In this document: positions 23,918 to 31,379 of the stretch, in pieces
Numbering within the stretch: the stretch's first letter is position 1
Layout: each line of letters opens with the position of its first letter
Source of the DNA: Pseudochrobactrum kiredjianiae
Lineage (GTDB): Bacteria > Pseudomonadota > Alphaproteobacteria > Rhizobiales > Rhizobiaceae
DNA: 64,000 nt
Direction: 5' to 3'
Assembly: GCF_030362795.1 (NCBI RefSeq)
Contig: NZ_JAUCBM010000013.1
Span: 1-64,000, forward strand
The notes under the pieces: generated by a model
The model's input: the letters and a program-made list of their open reading frames with translations, nothing else
Told to the model about the DNA's origin: nothing
Database searches by the model: none
Position numbers and translations under genes: made by a program

Positions 23918-25669
23918 ATGTGTTTAGCCTGTAATCCCGCAGTAACCGCCATTCTTAAAAATGCAGCTTCAAGGCGTAATTTTCTGAAATATATGGGCGT
24001 GGCAGCAACATCGGTTTTTGCTGCACCACTTCTGACCAGAGGTTCTGCGCTGGCTGCTTCACCGACTGAAGGCCCCGCCGATATCATTTTTAAAGGCGGT
24101 ACAATTCTCACCGTCAATAAGGATAATGCCCGTGCAGAGGCAGTCGCCATTCGCGGCGATACGATTATCGGTGTCGGCAAGGCGGATGATATGCAGGCGC
24201 TGAGTGGCGCCCAAACGCGGATAATTGACCTTCAGGGGCGCACACTGACGCCAGGTTTGATTGATCCGCATATGCATTCAACATTTGTGGTGCTGGATGA
24301 CTGGATTGATGTCAGCCCGATGGCAACACCGAGTTTTGCAGAGGTTTGGACGCAGTTGCGGCAGGGAGCAGCAAAAGCCAAGGCGGGAGATTGGATTCGT
24401 GCAAAGAATTTTGATCCGAGTATTACGCTGGAGGCACGGCCGCCGACTTTGGCAGAACTGGATGCTCTGGCGCCCAATAATCCGTTTTTCATGATCGAGA
24501 GTAATGGTCATATTGCCTATGCGAATAGTTTTGCAATGAAACTATCCGGCGTTACAGAAGCAATAAAAGACCCGTCAGGCGCACGATTTGTGCGCGATGC
24601 CAATGGTAAGCTGAGTGGCAGGCTGGAAGAAAGCGCGGCGCAAGAGCCGTTTATTGAAAAAATGCCACAGCCTACAGCGCAGGAAATTCAGAGGCGTATC
24701 CGCAACTTGTTCAATCATGCCGCATCCGTTGGCTGCACCAGTTTGCATGATTGCAGCATCGGCATGTTGTCCGGCACGAATGACATTGCTCTGCTTGATG
24801 CGGTGATGGCTGACAATCCACCGGTGCGCTATCGAGGCATGCTGATTTCCACATTGATGGATGAGTGGGACAAACTCGGCATCAAACCCGGCCATGGCAA
24901 TGATCTGTTCCGTATCGATGGTATCAAGGCTTGGGCGGATGGCTCCAATCAGGCGGAAACCGGCTATCAGCGCGAGAATTATCTCGGCAAAAATACACGC
25001 GGCACACTCAATTACAGTCTGGAACAAATAACTGAAGTGATCCGTCGGGCGCATAACGGCGGCTGGCAGGTTGGCGTGCATGCGAATGGCGATGCGGCGA
25101 TTGATACGGTGATTGAAGCCTATCAGACCGTGTTGCAGGGTACGGGTACCAATGATCTGCGACACCGGATTGAGCATTGCAGTGTGTTCCATCCGGAGCA
25201 GATGGAGAAAATGGTGCGGCTGGGTCTGTCACCATCCTTTTTGATTGGCCATGTGCGGTGGTGGGGCAAAGCATTCCGGGATCGTATTTTAGGGCCGGAG
25301 CGGGCAAAATATTATGATCCTTGCGCTTCTGCTTTGGCGGCAGGGCTGCGGATTTCTCTGCACTCCGACTGGAGTGTGACACCGATTGAACCATTGCGGT
25401 ATATGCAGGATGCCGTGAGGCGTATCATGCATGAAGGCGGCGGCATTTTTTATTCCGATGAATGTATTTCAGCAGATGCAGCTTTGCGCGCTGTAACGAT
25501 TGATGCCGCATGGCATTGCCATATGGATGATAAGGTCGGCAGTGTTGAAGTCGGGAAATATGCGGATTTCGCTATTCTGGAACAAGACCCGACCAGCGGT
25601 GTTCAAGATATTGGTAAGATCAAAGTGAGTGAAACATGGATGGCTGGTGAGCAGCGCTATTCAGCCTGA
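23918..25669 (+). CDS. Tat-exported amidohydrolase (YtcJ-like, Amidohydro_3)
   Basis: This 583-residue metal-dependent hydrolase begins with MCLACNPA and a twin-arginine signal (ASRRNFLKYMGVAATSVFAAPLL, cleavage near ALA-ASP), so it should be exported folded. The metal motif is LIDPHMHSTF near residue 120; VHANGDAAIDTV and SLHSDWSVTPIEP supply later ligands. The family hydrolyses amide or cyclic amide bonds, and the substrate is unknown. AAAGGGAA precedes the ATG. The gene ends 67 bases before soxR, but the soxR promoter region lies between them. Confidence 0.88.
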   Translation: MCLACNPAVTAILKNAASRRNFLKYMGVAATSVFAAPLLTRGSALAASPTEGPADIIFKGGTILTVNKDNARAEAVAIRGDTIIGVGKADDMQALSGAQTRIIDLQGRTLTPGLIDPHMHSTFVVLDDWIDVSPMATPSFAEVWTQLRQGAAKAKAGDWIRAKNFDPSITLEARPPTLAELDALAPNNPFFMIESNGHIAYANSFAMKLSGVTEAIKDPSGARFVRDANGKLSGRLEESAAQEPFIEKMPQPTAQEIQRRIRNLFNHAASVGCTSLHDCSIGMLSGTNDIALLDAVMADNPPVRYRGMLISTLMDEWDKLGIKPGHGNDLFRIDGIKAWADGSNQAETGYQRENYLGKNTRGTLNYSLEQITEVIRRAHNGGWQVGVHANGDAAIDTVIEAYQTVLQGTGTNDLRHRIEHCSVFHPEQMEKMVRLGLSPSFLIGHVRWWGKAFRDRILGPERAKYYDPCASALAAGLRISLHSDWSVTPIEPLRYMQDAVRRIMHEGGGIFYSDECISADAALRAVTIDAAWHCHMDDKVGSVEVGKYADFAILEQDPTSGVQDIGKIKVSETWMAGEQRYSA

Positions 25670-25716: not shown

Positions 25717-25734
25717 CCTCAGCTATAATTGAGG
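25717..25734 (+). promoter_or_regulatory. SoxR box overlapping the soxR promoter
   Basis: CCTCAGCTATAATTGAGG matches the 18-bp SoxR operator layout (CCTCA-N8-TGAGG) and lies in a longer perfect palindrome (CATACCTCA at 25713, TGAGGTATG to 25738). A TATAAT sits in its centre at 25724-25729, seven bases before the soxR ATG. SoxR binding would cover this -10, which suggests autorepression, and the transcript may be leaderless. Confidence 0.85.
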
Positions 25735-26200: not shown

Positions 26201-26231
26201 ATTGACGAAGAAAGGTTTTTATAATTATTGC

Positions 26232-26262
26232 TTGACCTCAGCTTTGGTTGAGGTTCTATAAG
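26232..26262 (+). promoter_or_regulatory. SoxR-type promoter with 19-bp spacer and SoxR box
   Basis: A -35 TTGACC (26232-26237) and -10 TATAAG (26257-26262) are separated by exactly 19 bp, the over-long spacing of MerR/SoxR-activated promoters. The SoxR box CCTCAGCTTTGGTTGAGG (26236-26253) lies between them. It drives the micro-ORF at 26413 and the DoxX gene, with a start of transcription near 26269. Confidence 0.9.
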
Positions 26263-26324
26263 CATGTCGGTGATTGTGACAACCTGTCAAATAGGTGGTT
26301 GTCGCAGGCATTCTTTTTGAAGTG

Positions 26325-26368
26325 TCACATGATTTTACGCACGGGTAAAAACCGGTGAATTCATGTGA
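26325..26368 (+). other. Leader hairpin in the SoxR-controlled transcript
   Basis: TCACATGA (26325-26332) pairs with TCATGTGA (26361-26368); an inner stem ACGGGT…ACCGGT region adds to it. It lies in the roughly 140-base leader before the micro-ORF. No known riboswitch class is recognised. Confidence 0.45.
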
Positions 26369-26412
26369 TCGCGAAGGGATCTTGGCGTTTTAAACGCTTT
26401 TGGAGAGCCGAC

Positions 26413-26517
26413 ATGAATAAATATGGAACCGATATAAAACCGGCTGCTGCTGCCGCTCAATCTACTGCACATTTCAACATCATAAAAACTATGCGCCTCA
26501 CAGGCCATACAGGGTGA
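26413..26517 (+). CDS. Micro-ORF of 34 codons upstream of DoxX
   Basis: The ATG follows TTTTGGAGAGCCGAC, a strong Shine-Dalgarno at good spacing. It encodes 34 residues beginning MNKYGTDIKPAAAAAQ and ending RLTGHTG, then two stop codons in tandem (TGATGA). It lies in the SoxR-controlled transcript and ends 4 bases before the DoxX start, so translation is probably coupled. The peptide is slightly basic, has no membrane segment, and I recognise no family. It may be a small protein or only a leader that loads ribosomes onto doxX. Confidence 0.6.
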   Translation: MNKYGTDIKPAAAAAQSTAHFNIIKTMRLTGHTG

Positions 26518-26521
26518 TGAA

Positions 26522-26932
26522 ATGCCGGTTATGATTACAAGGATACTGGATGCGCAGTGGTTCGACGTTTTGGCACGCATTTTGCTGACACTGGTTTTCT
26601 GGACAAGCGGGCTGGGTAAATTATTCGATTTTACAGCCAGCGCAGGCATTATGGATGATTTCGGCCTGCAACCAGGTTGGGCCTATAATATCGCTACCCT
26701 GATCCTTCAGATCGGTGCATCGCTGATGATTATCTGTAACAAAGGTGTATGGCTCGCCACAGGTGCTTTGGCCGTCTTTACTATCCTGACGGTGCCGGTC
26801 GCGCATCCGTTCTGGGCGAAGCAGGGAGAAGAGGCATTCCGTGACGTGACCGTTGCGCTTGAGCATATATCCGTCATCGGCGGATTGGCTGTCTATGCTA
26901 TCTATTTTCGTCAAAGACAGCGCATGCTTTAG
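26522..26932 (+). CDS. DoxX-family membrane protein, MexG-like
   Basis: This 136-residue inner-membrane protein has four predicted helices (WFDVLARILLTLVFWTSGLGKLF; WAYNIATLILQIGASLMIIC; GVWLATGALAVFTILTVPVAH; ISVIGGLAVYAIYF). The pattern FWTSGLGKLFDF…FGLQPGW resembles MexG of Pseudomonas, the DoxX protein of the SoxR-regulated mexGHI-opmD operon; this is from memory of the family. Here it stands without efflux-pump genes. It is downstream of a SoxR-type promoter and a micro-ORF. A role in handling redox-active compounds or quinones is inferred. Confidence 0.85.
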   Translation: MPVMITRILDAQWFDVLARILLTLVFWTSGLGKLFDFTASAGIMDDFGLQPGWAYNIATLILQIGASLMIICNKGVWLATGALAVFTILTVPVAHPFWAKQGEEAFRDVTVALEHISVIGGLAVYAIYFRQRQRML

Positions 26933-27003: not shown

Positions 27004-27219
27004 TTAAATGTAAGAGGCCAGAATATTAATGAAAAACAATGAGATACTGAAAATTGTGATCAATGCCACGATCCAGACCCCGAAGGCTTTGATTTCAGCA
27101 TATTGAGCGCCGGACTGGCTTTCCAGATATTTCCTCTCAGCATAAGCCGCAATTACAACTGAAAGTGGAAGACCGATCACCAAGAGCGACACAATAAGCG
27201 TTGTCATTTTAAAAATCAT
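27004..27219 (-). CDS. Small two-helix membrane protein, unknown function
   Basis: This 71-residue protein has two hydrophobic segments (MTTLIVSLLVIGLPLSVVIAAYA and AFGVWIVALITIFSISLFFINILA) joined by a charged loop with ERKYLESQSGAQY. The ATG at 27219 has GGGAG six bases upstream, which supports translation. I recognise no family. It converges with the DoxX gene and has no clear operon partner. Confidence 0.6.
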   Translation of the reverse strand: MIFKMTTLIVSLLVIGLPLSVVIAAYAERKYLESQSGAQYAEIKAFGVWIVALITIFSISLFFINILASYI

Positions 27220-27480
27220 GGTGCGCTCCCTTTTGCTAAAACCAGTTTCACTGGGTGTTCTTTAAAGTCTATAGAGCATTAAAAGAATTGCAATCTTATT
27301 GCTTTTATTCACGTTTAAGTGTTTTTTCTTGAATTTTGTCGCAATCAAGACATTTGAATTACTTAAATTACTGATATTTAAATTGAATATTTAATTCAAC
27401 TATAGTCTGATTTGACGTAGTTTATATTGATATTACCGTCATTTTCTGCCATTGCGTCCGCGTTAGCGGGAGGGAACCGC

Positions 27481-27804
27481 ATGTTGGCATTTCCAATACT
27501 CTGTGATGCTATAAGGCAGAGAAGGCAAATTCGTTTTATTTATAAATCACTTCGCTGGATGGTGGAGCCGTATTTGCTCGGCTATTCACCTGATGGTAAT
27601 ATGGTTTTAAACTGCTGGGTTGTATCGCATCGTCATGAAACCGGCTGGCAGCAATTTCATGTGCCGCTGATTTCTAATGTTGTTTTATTGCAAAAGCGCT
27701 TTTTGCGGGCGCGGTCGGATTATAATCCTTACGATAAATCCATTGCACAGGTGGTCTGGCGCTTTGAGGGTTTCAACGCATCAATCGATGTCGGAGAAAT
27801 TTGA
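27481..27804 (+). CDS. Stand-alone WYL-domain-like protein
   Basis: This 107-residue protein looks like a single WYL domain: RQRRQIRFIYKSLRWMVEPYLLGYSPDG, then MVLNCWVVS and FHVPLISNVVLL. WYL domains usually bind ligands or nucleic acid in regulators with an HTH, and none is present here. The ATG at 27481 follows GGGAGGGAACCGC, a very strong ribosome-binding site; a longer reading from 27427 lacks one. The end QVVWRFEGFNAS is diverged. Role unknown, perhaps a partner or ligand-sensing subunit. Confidence 0.65.
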   Translation: MLAFPILCDAIRQRRQIRFIYKSLRWMVEPYLLGYSPDGNMVLNCWVVSHRHETGWQQFHVPLISNVVLLQKRFLRARSDYNPYDKSIAQVVWRFEGFNASIDVGEI

Positions 27805-27852: not shown

Positions 27853-28545
27853 TCAAATAGCTCTGAGATCCTGAAGCCAAGGTCCCGCATTGCGGGCATC
27901 GGCTTCATGTGGCTCATCGCGCCATGTTTCGGCAAGGCTTGCCTGATACCAATCCTGCATAGCAGGCAGGTTACGCAGATGGTCGGCATATTTTGCTGCT
28001 TTATCGCCGAGTTTGATGCCATAAGACTGGAAACGGAAGACTACCGGTGCAAAAAAGGCATCGACAGCAGTGAATTTTTCACCGGCCAGAAACGGCCCGC
28101 CAAATTTATCCAGACCTTCAGTCCAAAGCTGCTCAATACGATTGATATCTTTGAGCAGAGCAGGCTCCATTTTCGTGCTAATATCAATGCGCAAACCGAT
28201 ATTATTGGTACAAATGCTACGCAATGTATGAAAGCCTGAATGCATTTCAGCTGTCGCACAGCGTGCCCATGCTTTGACTTTTTTGTCCTGCGGCCAAACC
28301 TGCGGATACTCATCCGCTACATATTCGGTTATGGCGAGAGAATCCCAGACTGAAATTACACTGCCATCACTTTGCTGATCGGACAGGCAAGGCACCTGAC
28401 CGGTTGGTGACGGATTTTTGTTCCAGTCAGCACTGCCGAACGGGATCAGCATTTCTTCAAAAGGGATTTTGAGCTGCGTCATCAAGAGCCATGGCCGGAG
28501 TGACCATGTGGAGTAGTTTTTATTGGCGATATATAGTGTGTACAT
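27853..28545 (-). CDS. Glutathione S-transferase family protein
   Basis: This 230-residue protein has an N-terminal thioredoxin-fold domain (YTLYIANKNYSTWSLRPWLLMTQ…GQVPCLSD…WDSLAITEYVAD, with the SLAI glutathione-binding motif) and an all-helical C-terminal domain. NYSTWSLRPWL places it with the YfcF/zeta-like branch seen in proteobacteria. It probably conjugates or isomerises with glutathione; the substrate is unknown. The ATG at 28545 (MYTLYIA) is preferred to 28572 because the family starts there and GGAC lies upstream. Confidence 0.88.
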   Translation of the reverse strand: MYTLYIANKNYSTWSLRPWLLMTQLKIPFEEMLIPFGSADWNKNPSPTGQVPCLSDQQSDGSVISVWDSLAITEYVADEYPQVWPQDKKVKAWARCATAEMHSGFHTLRSICTNNIGLRIDISTKMEPALLKDINRIEQLWTEGLDKFGGPFLAGEKFTAVDAFFAPVVFRFQSYGIKLGDKAAKYADHLRNLPAMQDWYQASLAETWRDEPHEADARNAGPWLQDLRAI

Positions 28546-28741: not shown

Positions 28742-29188
28742 ATGCATATCAGACCTTTTGTTTCAAATGATCGCCACAGACTAACCGAGATTTGGCGCGC
28801 CGCCGTTGAGGCAACCCATGATTTCCTAACTGTGGCCGATATCGAGCATTATGAGCCGCTTGTACGGGATACATATCTGCCTGCCGTTGAAGTCTGGGTT
28901 GCAGAAGATGCACAAGGCGCACTGACCGGTTTTATCGGCCTGTCTGAAAACAAAGTGGAAATGCTGTTTGTTGATCCGGCCGTTAAAGGGCAGGGCATTG
29001 GACGTGCCTTGCTAGACCATGCACATAGCCTGAAAGGGCGTCTTGCCGTGGATGTGAACGAGCAGAACCCGTTAGCGGTGGGGTTCTATCTGAAATATGG
29101 TTTTGTCCAAACCGGCCGCTCAGAGACAGACAGTGAGGGCAAGCCCTTCCCTATTATTCACTTGGCGCAGCCTGAGACTTGCTGCTGA
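28742..29188 (+). CDS. GNAT-family N-acetyltransferase, YjaB-like
   Basis: This 148-residue enzyme has the motif A strand VEMLFVDPAVKGQGIGRALLDHA and motif B VNEQNPLAVGFYLKYGF. The start (IRPFVSNDRHRLTEIWRAAVEATHDFL) is typical of the YjaB group. Acceptor unknown. Its last 35 bases overlap the 3' end of the convergent cytochrome c gene, so the two transcripts are antisense at their ends. Confidence 0.85.
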   Translation: MHIRPFVSNDRHRLTEIWRAAVEATHDFLTVADIEHYEPLVRDTYLPAVEVWVAEDAQGALTGFIGLSENKVEMLFVDPAVKGQGIGRALLDHAHSLKGRLAVDVNEQNPLAVGFYLKYGFVQTGRSETDSEGKPFPIIHLAQPETCC

Positions 29189-29549
29189 GATAGGCCAGCA
29201 AATCATCAATCTGACTCTCCCATAGTCCCCAAAAACGCATACTGGTTCCCGGAACCATGGTTTTTGGGGATGTCAGAAACTCTTTGAGGGTTGCATCATT
29301 CCAGATCAGGCCATTTTCACCGGCCTGCCTCAAAGCATCTGAATAGACAAAGCCTTCTATCGAGCCAGCCTCGCGTCCCTGAATATCCATCAGGTGAGGC
29401 CCCATCCGGTTGGTTGGCTGGTTCAGGGTATGACAAAAATAGCATTTCTTATAAATTTTCTCGCCATTCTTCACATCGCCATCTGCCAGAACTGGAACAG
29501 GTGCCAGCAGAGCAAGAATAAGGATTGAAGTTTTTAAAGCGCGAAACAT
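29154..29549 (-). CDS. Class I cytochrome c, periplasmic
   Basis: This 131-residue protein has a signal peptide (ALKTSILILALLAPVPVLA, cut before DGDVKNG) and a single heme c site CYFCH (Cys36, Cys39, His40). The distal ligand is probably Met104 in VPGTSMRF. NRMGPHLMDIQGREAGSIEGFVYSDAL matches cytochrome c2/c550-type electron carriers. It should shuttle electrons in the periplasm. It overlaps the convergent GNAT gene by 35 bases at the 3' end. Confidence 0.9.
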   Translation of the reverse strand: MFRALKTSILILALLAPVPVLADGDVKNGEKIYKKCYFCHTLNQPTNRMGPHLMDIQGREAGSIEGFVYSDALRQAGENGLIWNDATLKEFLTSPKTMVPGTSMRFWGLWESQIDDLLAYLSSKSQAAPSE

Positions 29550-29654: not shown

Positions 29655-30872
29655 TTAGTTTTTCTGTCCCATTGTCAGTACCAGAGTTAGCAATGCAGAG
29701 ACTACACAATAGGCCACAAGAGGCAGCACTGTATCACCACCGAGAAGCAGAACTGCGACGGTTCCGCCAATGCTGACCACCAGACTTTCAATGCAATAAT
29801 AGATTGCTGTAGCCATTCCGGCATAATCGCCAAAGGCTTTGAGCGCGCCATTGGCCGTAACAGAGCAAGTCAATGCGATGCCTGCCGCTACGATCCACAT
29901 AATCAGAATGAATGCCACCACATTCAGCTCTGTGACCCATCCTGCAAAGAACAGCAAAATACCACCGCTCATAATCAGCAAGACACCGCGCCTTAAAGTG
30001 CCGCGTAGTCCCCACCATTTGGTGTAATTACCGGCAAAACGAGCGAAGATCACCATCACAATGGCGATGCTTGCAAAACACAGACTAAATGTGACGGTAG
30101 ACAGGCCAAGTCTATCGATCAGCAAGCGCGGTGCCGTTGAAAAATAAACAAAAAACGCGCCCATCGCCGTACTGAAGCCCATTGTATAAGTCCAGAACTG
30201 ACGATTGGAGAGGATTGTGCGCAGCTTCCCTTGCTGTTCTTCACGGGTTACAATCCGCGTTTCCGGCCAGCGCCATGCAGCATGGAGACCGGCAAGTGCC
30301 CCCAATGCTGCCAGCAGCCAAAAAATACTGCGCCAGCCGAACTGAATGTCCAGCAAGGCGCCGAGCAACGGTGCCAGTGCCGGTACAAATGCCAGCATTG
30401 AACCGAACAGACTGTAAATCACTGCACTTTCCGGTCGCTCCGCATAAACATCACGCACAGTCGCAAAAGTTGCCACCAGCATAGCCGCAGCCCCTGCCGC
30501 CTGAATGAGACGCAAGACAAGAAACAGATTGGCAGAGCTACTCATCGCCAGCCCCGCAGACGCAGCGGTAAACGCAAATGCACCACCGAGCAGAACCGGT
30601 CTGCGTCCGAATTTGTCTGACAGAGGGCCGAAGATCAGCTGACCTGTGCCGAGCAGTAACAAATAGAGGCTGAGTGTGAGCTGTATCATAGCGGGGTTGG
30701 TTTGCAGCGCTTGCGACATATGCGGCACAACAGGCAGGTAAATATCCATGCCCATAGACGCCAAAAGGTCAAACGGCACCATCAAAAACAGAGCAGCACT
30801 AAGTGTAAAGCGCCATTGCACCGGCAGACTTCCCTCTGCGGGTTGCATAGGCTTACTTTTGTAAGAAGACAT
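29655..30872 (-). CDS. MFS drug efflux transporter, CmlA/FloR-like
   Basis: This protein of about 405 residues is a 12-helix proton-driven exporter of the DHA1 Bcr/CflA group. The N-terminus PFDLLASMGMDIYLPVVPHM, the A motif GPLSDKFGRRPVLLGG and the stretch LVATFATVRDVYAERPESAVIYSLFGSMLAFVPALAPLLGALLD closely parallel the CmlA and FloR phenicol exporters, judged from memory. Whether it confers phenicol resistance is untested; many chromosomal homologues have other substrates. The ATG at 30872 is chosen because CmlA/FloR-like homology begins soon after. GGATTC upstream is the only candidate ribosome-binding site and lies beside a small palindrome at 30882-30895. Confidence 0.85.
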   Translation of the reverse strand: MSSYKSKPMQPAEGSLPVQWRFTLSAALFLMVPFDLLASMGMDIYLPVVPHMSQALQTNPAMIQLTLSLYLLLLGTGQLIFGPLSDKFGRRPVLLGGAFAFTAASAGLAMSSSANLFLVLRLIQAAGAAAMLVATFATVRDVYAERPESAVIYSLFGSMLAFVPALAPLLGALLDIQFGWRSIFWLLAALGALAGLHAAWRWPETRIVTREEQQGKLRTILSNRQFWTYTMGFSTAMGAFFVYFSTAPRLLIDRLGLSTVTFSLCFASIAIVMVIFARFAGNYTKWWGLRGTLRRGVLLIMSGGILLFFAGWVTELNVVAFILIMWIVAAGIALTCSVTANGALKAFGDYAGMATAIYYCIESLVVSIGGTVAVLLLGGDTVLPLVAYCVVSALLTLVLTMGQKN

Positions 30873-31379
30873 GAGTTGAATCCACATGAATGTGGCATGC
30901 ATAGAGAACATCATCCGCCACGGTGTTTAAAACAACCGGCAGAGCAGGGTTCTGAATGTTACGCCGTAAATTTTCTTCAGATGATAAAATTTACGGCTGA
31001 CGGGTTGCGGATTCGACTTTTCCCATAATGATTGCTGTTTAAAATTTTCTCTGCAAATTGTCAAAGCGGGGCAATTGCAGGTCAAACCTTCAGAAATGGA
31101 TTACGACCTGTCAGTATGCTGATAAACGCAATTGTGAGTGGCTTCTCAGCCATGCGGCACTATGATCGCAGGAAGAATGTCGGTCTTTGATTGACTGGAC
31201 GGTGTATTTTTGCCAAATCAGCGCAAATGATTTTCATAGAAGCGCAGGATGATCCCTGTATAATGCGTCTGTGTTTATTGCAGAATGTTGCGGTGCTATT
31301 GTAAGTCCTGTCAGGCAAATGCTGCGATGTGAGATTGAGATTATGACGTGCATCAGATGCACAGGAAAGGTTTAGGGCT
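30873..31379. other. Divergent intergenic region between the efflux gene and pcm
   Basis: These 507 bases hold the promoters of two divergent genes. A small palindrome CCACAT-GA-ATGTGG (30882-30895) sits next to the efflux gene start. I see no supported coding sequence or RNA gene in the rest. Confidence 0.4.

Follow-up and report, generated by a model that had tools for sequence, protein, structure and literature searches.

A SoxR-box doxX operon in Pseudochrobactrum with a micro-ORF that matches both ends of an MFS pump gene

The window analyzed here, a stretch of 64,000 nucleotides from Pseudochrobactrum kiredjianiae, carries soxR followed by a SoxR-type promoter, a structured leader, a micro-ORF of 34 codons and doxX. 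By sequence comparison with related species, the micro-ORF is the two ends of an MFS pump gene after an in-frame deletion. We consider it probable that the locus is a SoxR-activated operon which lost its MFS pump in frame in the ancestor of three species, that the scar now forms a probably translated leader of doxX, and that DoxX acts alone.

The soxR-doxX locus and its promoter

Regulators of the SoxR family activate promoters with a 19-bp spacer when their iron-sulfur cluster is oxidized. The features of the locus are as follows, L004-L008 being five related loci described below.

25717-25734: SoxR box before soxR itself, CCTCAGCTATAATTGAGG; boxes with 0-1 mismatch occupy the same place in L004-L008
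25736-26200, + strand: soxR, redox-sensing MerR-family activator (TIGR01950, 204.1 bits, cut-off 116.9)
From residue 119 of SoxR: iron-sulfur cysteines CX2CXCX5C, CIGCGCLSLADC, a motif read in the protein
26232-26262, + strand: SoxR-type promoter with -35 TTGACC (26232-26237), 19-bp spacer and -10 TATAAG (26257-26262)
26236-26253: SoxR box CCTCAGCTTTGGTTGAGG inside the spacer, read in the sequence and recovered by a genome pattern scan
26266-26412, + strand: structured 5' leader, 147 nt
26266-26271, + strand: GTCGGT, candidate 5' arm of a closing stem, close to where the transcript is expected to begin
26402-26406, + strand: GGAGA, ribosome-binding site of the micro-ORF (of the pump gene in relatives), GGAGAGCCGAC-ATG being the same in L004-L008
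26407-26412, + strand: GCCGAC, candidate 3' arm of that stem, immediately upstream of the micro-ORF ATG
26413-26517, + strand: micro-ORF, 34 codons, in-frame deletion scar of an MFS pump gene (matches of both ends)
26446-26517, + strand: micro-ORF segment that aligns in register to the final 72 nt of the pump gene (outscoring all 1386 other offsets in 9/9 gene pairs)
26522-26932, + strand: doxX, 136 aa (PF07681, 57.6 bits, cut-off 23.6)

The SoxR assignment combines a TIGR01950 score over the curated cut-off with the presence of the cysteine motif. A sequence-only reading of this DNA had proposed a SoxR-activated promoter just after soxR, driving a structured leader, a 34-codon ORF with a ribosome-binding site and a doxX gene without an adjoining pump. 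These elements are all recovered: the box and the two promoter elements make this a promoter of the SoxR-activated type as judged from sequence, the leader has a predicted fold of -54.5 kcal/mol (z -4.6) which none of 200 shuffles equals, and the ORF lies behind GGAGA. Downstream of doxX no RND adaptor, pump or outer-membrane channel follows, profile searches having found no RND parts in the genes at 27004-27219 (-), 27478-27804 (+), 27853-28545 (-), 29154-29549 (-) and 29655-30914 (-). The last of these encodes an MFS exporter which NF033134 (564 bits, cut-off 450) assigns to the CmlA/FloR chloramphenicol family, and a gene resembling it by eye lies downstream in L006 and L008. On the other side, an amidohydrolase gene (23918-25669, +; Tat-signal match below the cut-off) directly precedes soxR, as it does in L004-L008, where it is partly cut off by the end of the locus in L006-L008. 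Distant amidohydrolases, at 23-26% identity, also occur beside other DoxX genes (L100, L103, L107 and L122); a close kinship with the one before soxR was rejected at 20-26% identity.

In the draft genome that contains the window (4.46 Mb, 45 contigs, 99.99% complete), CCTCA-N8-TGAGG occurs at four places, two of them at the soxR-doxX locus, and its reversed control at none, which argues that the box is not there by chance. The full promoter pattern with up to two mismatches occurs at two places, without mismatch before the micro-ORF and doxX and with one mismatch on contig C22. The C22:1178 box was rejected as a SoxR target because it precedes a transposase gene, and the box at C3:192453 because promoter elements are absent. 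After this promoter scan, the micro-ORF/doxX unit and soxR itself are the only clear SoxR targets left in the genome.

The micro-ORF and the lost pump gene

Named genomes searched at the protein level yielded the five loci L004-L008, the closest being that of P. asaccharolyticum DSM 25619. They share soxR, box, leader and doxX, so the conservation in relatives on which the sequence-only reading depended is found. L004 and L005 resemble the window, with soxR, box, leader, micro-ORF and doxX. In L006 (from P. saccharolyticum), L007 and L008, everything from soxR through box and leader to the GGAGAGCCGAC-ATG start is shared as well, and there the ATG opens an MFS transporter of 488 codons (PF07690) whose end lies directly before doxX. 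Behind the SoxR promoter, the MFS gene is thus intact in L006-L008, and only its two ends are present in the window. The record of L005 is titled Bacillus subtilis SK6B4, probably a mislabelling given its Pseudochrobactrum-like locus.

The two ends of the micro-ORF were each compared with the pump genes. The encoded peptides end similarly, ..MRLTGHTG in the window and ..MKVVRLTGGKG in the L006 pump. When the last 48-72 nt of the micro-ORFs were slid along the pump genes, the true end matched best in 9/9 pairs at all five lengths, and none of the 1386-1410 other offsets per comparison was as good. The first 48 nt of the micro-ORF equal the start of the pump gene at 22-26 positions, a match equalled by 0-2 of the 1418 other offsets; shorter start pieces (18 or 30 nt) leave up to 11 equal offsets. 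Of the 1467 nt of coding sequence in the pump gene, 105 nt remain, and the 454 missing codons leave the frame intact. With two ends that match those of the pump gene, and with the same leader end and start context, the micro-ORF is by these comparisons a deletion scar. The small ORF had been taken for a new one in the sequence-only reading; we rejected this, given the matches of both ends in the sliding tests. We also rejected a move of the pump gene to another place in the genome of the window, where the best of 11 MFS matches is a paralog. This protein, on contig C4, is 50% identical to the lost pump and has no SoxR box nearby. On another contig (C6:112504-112964; L059/L072), a SoxR-box-like site with one mismatch lies between the gene of another MerR regulator and a divergent MFS gene.

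Distribution and history of the locus

Among seven genomes of the genus, three carry the scar, three carry the pump and one (G096) has no match to the DNA of the locus. Trees of soxR, of doxX and of both group the three scar carriers with 94-100% support, the pump-bearing species being poorly resolved among themselves in the soxR and doxX trees. The order soxR, box, MFS gene, doxX also occurs in two other genera (L038 and L039), and the promoter layout of the window precedes the MFS gene there as in L006-L008. L039 (G119) shows a second mismatch-free box at position 1038, about 1.3 kb upstream of soxR; the ORF behind this box has, by eye, the look of a secreted protein. Across 397 genomes sampled from the order, 14 have a strong MFS match; soxR and a box (up to two mismatches) lie beside the MFS gene in 10/14 of these matches, and doxX within 1.5 kb downstream of it in 0/14. 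Plasmid-borne relatives of the pump were not found at E 1e-100.

The presence of soxR, box, MFS gene and doxX in other genera, together with the grouping of the three pumpless species as one clade, points to loss as the direction of the change. The likely history, as read from these gene orders and trees, is a soxR/MFS unit which gained doxX and then lost the pump in one clade.

Other pumps differ among the scar carriers. The two other pumpless genomes (G151 and G153) have a mismatch-free SoxR promoter before genes for an adaptor (HlyD family) and an RND pump (ACR_tran), located at L135:3-1507 and L143:3-1507, and the two operons share 97% identity. Elsewhere in the genus, the best adaptor in each of the five remaining genomes reaches only 28-34% identity (33% for the genome of the window), G154 being only 61% complete. 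These matches suggest that an RND pump may have been gained in G151 and G153, and not in the species of the window.

Selection after pump loss

Within the pumpless group, the dN/dS values are 0.050, 0.080 and 0.095 for doxX, compared with 0.050-0.101 among the species with the pump, and 0.061-0.069 for soxR. By these ratios both genes stay under strong purifying selection after the loss of the pump, so the SoxR output has not been abandoned. The earlier suggestion of a small SoxR output is strengthened.

The micro-ORF behaves differently, with dN/dS values of 0.38, 0.47 and 1.3 among the three species and 59-73% amino-acid identity versus 91-94% for DoxX, which suggests that its amino acids matter little. 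At the nucleotide level it changes more slowly than the fourfold-degenerate sites of soxR and doxX, with 18/102 versus 57/134 changes (p 4e-5), 22/105 versus 52/133 (p 0.003) and 10/102 versus 29/138 (p 0.02), in three comparisons which share sequences, are not independent and cover about 100 bases in three species. The micro-ORF has a single indel, of three bases, and the leader has three indels of one base each. Given the slow nucleotide change and the sole indel of three bases, this is what a leader kept translatable would look like.

The leader RNA

The stability of the predicted leader fold varies among the relatives, with z values of -6.4, -3.4, -3.4, -2.2 and -1.9 for L004-L008 and 0, 0, 0, 3 and 6 of 200 shuffles reaching the same stability, respectively. 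We collected 21 leaders that lie behind a SoxR box and before the MFS gene or the scar, leaving out the box-less MFS relatives L058, L095, L096 and L098; the start codons are TTG and GTG in L038 and L039. A closing stem of 6-8 bp, with G-U pairs allowed, is possible in 17/21 of them and is missing in L091-L094. Its 5' arm, GTCGGY, begins 3-4 bases past the -10 element, and its partner ends at the start codon or one base before, with the ribosome-binding site just inside the stem. The arms keep these places while the distance between them spans 14-137 nt, and some variants preserve pairing (GTCGGTCT with GGACTGAC, and GTCGGCTT with GAGCTGAC). It is this recurrence at fixed places, with pairing-preserving variants, that makes the candidate stem of interest; each case alone is weak, 0-77 of 1000 single-sequence shuffles being as good among the 17, and no overall probability can be attached to the set since the leaders are related and non-independent. 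With the downstream RNA folded too, the closing stem has a probability of 0.99 in L004, but this falls to 0.27 in L005 and to just 0.06 in the window.

The inner hairpins were dropped as conserved pairs: in the consensus fold of six leaders, 8/45 pairs changed on both sides and the covariation term was unfavorable (+0.86). AACCGGC in the micro-ORF (26438-26444) is complementary to GCCGGTT at the start of doxX, and the predicted fold of L004 contains 7/7 of these pairs; coupling of micro-ORF and doxX by such RNA pairing is unsupported in the window, where its probability is 0. An Rfam search of the window gave no match besides a tRNA. A literature search for the stem found no description of it.

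DoxX and SoxR boxes beyond the genus

We surveyed 92 DoxX loci, relatives of two DoxX proteins and therefore an uneven sample, and found a box (up to two mismatches) within 2.5 kb upstream in 23; from plasmids, 13 DoxX records were inspected among the 30 listed of 139 matches. Merging repeats and setting aside L022/L052 (two mismatches, no -10) leaves 14 distinct cases, in which an MFS pump lies between box and doxX in five, RND genes follow in one, and no pump is adjacent in eight (the window, L004, L005, L101, L104 and L113-L115). The RND case is a Proteus mirabilis record (L109) with soxR divergent, box, doxX, adaptor and RND genes (by Pfam), and its DoxX is 38-40% identical to the one analyzed here. 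Among the cases without an adjacent pump, L101, on a plasmid of P. nitroreducens, has a divergent soxR and doxX, with a LysE translocator gene 0.8 kb off on the other strand. L104, on a Xenorhabdus plasmid (3884-6322), has a mismatch-free SoxR promoter 117 bp before a lone doxX, with phenazine biosynthesis genes 1.4 kb beyond it. L113-L115 have a perfect box and a poor -10, and a wider stretch of L114 (L128) includes an MFS gene 1.8 kb off on the other strand.

In the DoxX tree, the proteins linked to SoxR form two clades, and the pump partner differs among members of each: the scar carriers are nested among the MFS-linked proteins, and the Proteus protein, with its RND genes, pairs with the Xenorhabdus protein as sister at 99% support. 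The box-less L101b, L112 and L040 also fall inside these clades, so this link is not absolute; for L040, a close doxX relative, no soxR, box or relative of the lost MFS was found. A search with the Proteus DoxX recovered 2/369 Gammaproteobacteria genomes at E 1e-12, of which one had been known before, which indicates that this subfamily is rare there. In these SoxR-box units, compared by sequence, DoxX looks like the constant element and the pump the variable one. The predicted structure of DoxX is of low confidence (mean pLDDT 53.6), and no relative of solved structure was found, the best E being 0.52.

Comparison with known systems

In Pseudomonas aeruginosa, SoxR activates mexGHI-opmD, of which MexG is a DoxX protein. 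The locus analyzed here resembles the front end of that operon without the pump, having a SoxR-box promoter and a DoxX gene in one unit. It differs in that no RND gene follows, the lost partner is an MFS pump and doxX comes second, after the scar ORF. The sequence-only reading had seen in the locus the mexG-like part remaining from mexGHI-opmD. What holds of this is the DoxX gene in a SoxR-box unit and, with the Proteus protein as a proxy, an apparent likeness to MexG; what does not hold is the identity of the missing pump, which was an MFS transporter and not MexHI-OpmD.

In the available text on MexG, a review states that the protein has no known function and names PQS and HHQ as its ligands (PMC9228389), and another paper states that it is dispensable for normal export of phenazine substrates by MexGHI-OpmD (PMC7927275). 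The available text of the latter paper also describes LexABC of Lysobacter antibioticus, a phenazine exporter with no MexG homolog beside it there, the converse of the DoxX without a pump seen here. MfsA of Stenotrophomonas maltophilia is, in the portion available, a SoxR-regulated MFS pump with soxR adjoining and the box between -35 and -10 (PMC4411124). By arrangement, the putative ancestral form of our locus is a SoxR-MFS unit of this kind. As far as that portion goes, soxR and mfsA stand head to head and share one box, whereas here soxR and the unit stand in tandem, each with its own box, and the unit continues into doxX and has lost the pump.

A further likeness is the cluster on pTiAB2_73 (L099:1790-4334), in which soxR is divergent from genes for superoxide dismutase, ferredoxin, flavin reductase and DoxX. 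There, DoxX closes the unit, the promoter has a 19-bp spacer (by eye) and a two-mismatch box, and no pump lies inside. However, its DoxX has no match to the DoxX of the window at E 1e-6, redox enzymes belong to the unit, and about 1 kb past soxR there is an RND gene. A literature search for SoxR with DoxX, covering titles and the starts of abstracts, returned no paper about a SoxR-driven DoxX unit; in the available text of PMC4201530, a soxR and a DoxX gene are merely both listed as antibiotic-induced.

Discussion

In the reading that we find probable, a redox-active compound would oxidize the iron-sulfur cluster of SoxR, and oxidized SoxR would activate the 19-bp-spacer promoter, with mRNA starting near 26266. 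Ribosomes would load at the old start of the pump gene and translate the micro-ORF as far as its stop codon, which lies four bases ahead of doxX. The small membrane protein DoxX would then act alone on the redox-active compound, for example by binding it or by passing electrons onward.

The evidence could also be read as an exchange of pumps, with DoxX serving a pump made elsewhere, namely the SoxR-driven RND pump in the two other pumpless species and the MFS paralog in the genome of the window. The mismatch-free promoters before the adaptor and RND genes of G151 and G153 agree with such an exchange, and the paralog could cooperate in trans. Yet the genome of the window has neither such an RND operon nor a SoxR box near the paralog, and its doxX is equally constrained, so we regard an exchange as unlikely, if plausible. 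That the micro-ORF encodes a new functional peptide working with DoxX would fit an ORF that is open in all three species, with a good ribosome-binding site and a sole indel of three bases. This we hold to be improbable, because the peptide is so much less conserved than DoxX, has no Pfam or NCBIfam match in profile searches, and is explained by descent from the ends of the pump gene.

Nor is it probable, and perhaps even a shade less so, that the locus is decaying, with SoxR and doxX on their way out: the pump has been lost, conservation of the micro-ORF peptide is poor and the box of L004 has one mismatch, but box and promoter persist in all three species, doxX and soxR have dN/dS values below 0.1, and the micro-ORF is constrained at the nucleotide level. 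For an ancestral pumpless form, with the pump gene inserted between the start and doxX in the other lineages, we found no support. It seems highly improbable, given other genera that have soxR, box and MFS gene with or without doxX, and an insertion would not make the micro-ORF ends match both ends of the pump gene. Loss of the MFS pump, with DoxX continuing alone, is the reading that we retain.

More tentatively, and with some doubt, we propose that DoxX proteins of the MexG type may be stand-alone SoxR effectors which neutralize or sense redox-active compounds in the membrane, the pump (RND, MFS or none) being an exchangeable accessory. The pumpless clade would then be a natural pump knock-out showing that DoxX is independent, with the scar kept as the leader of doxX. 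The retention of DoxX without the pump suggests that this small membrane protein is useful independently of it. Such a function is directly testable in the pumpless lineage and bears on what MexG does, and the locus offers a clean case of a deletion scar retained as a leader.
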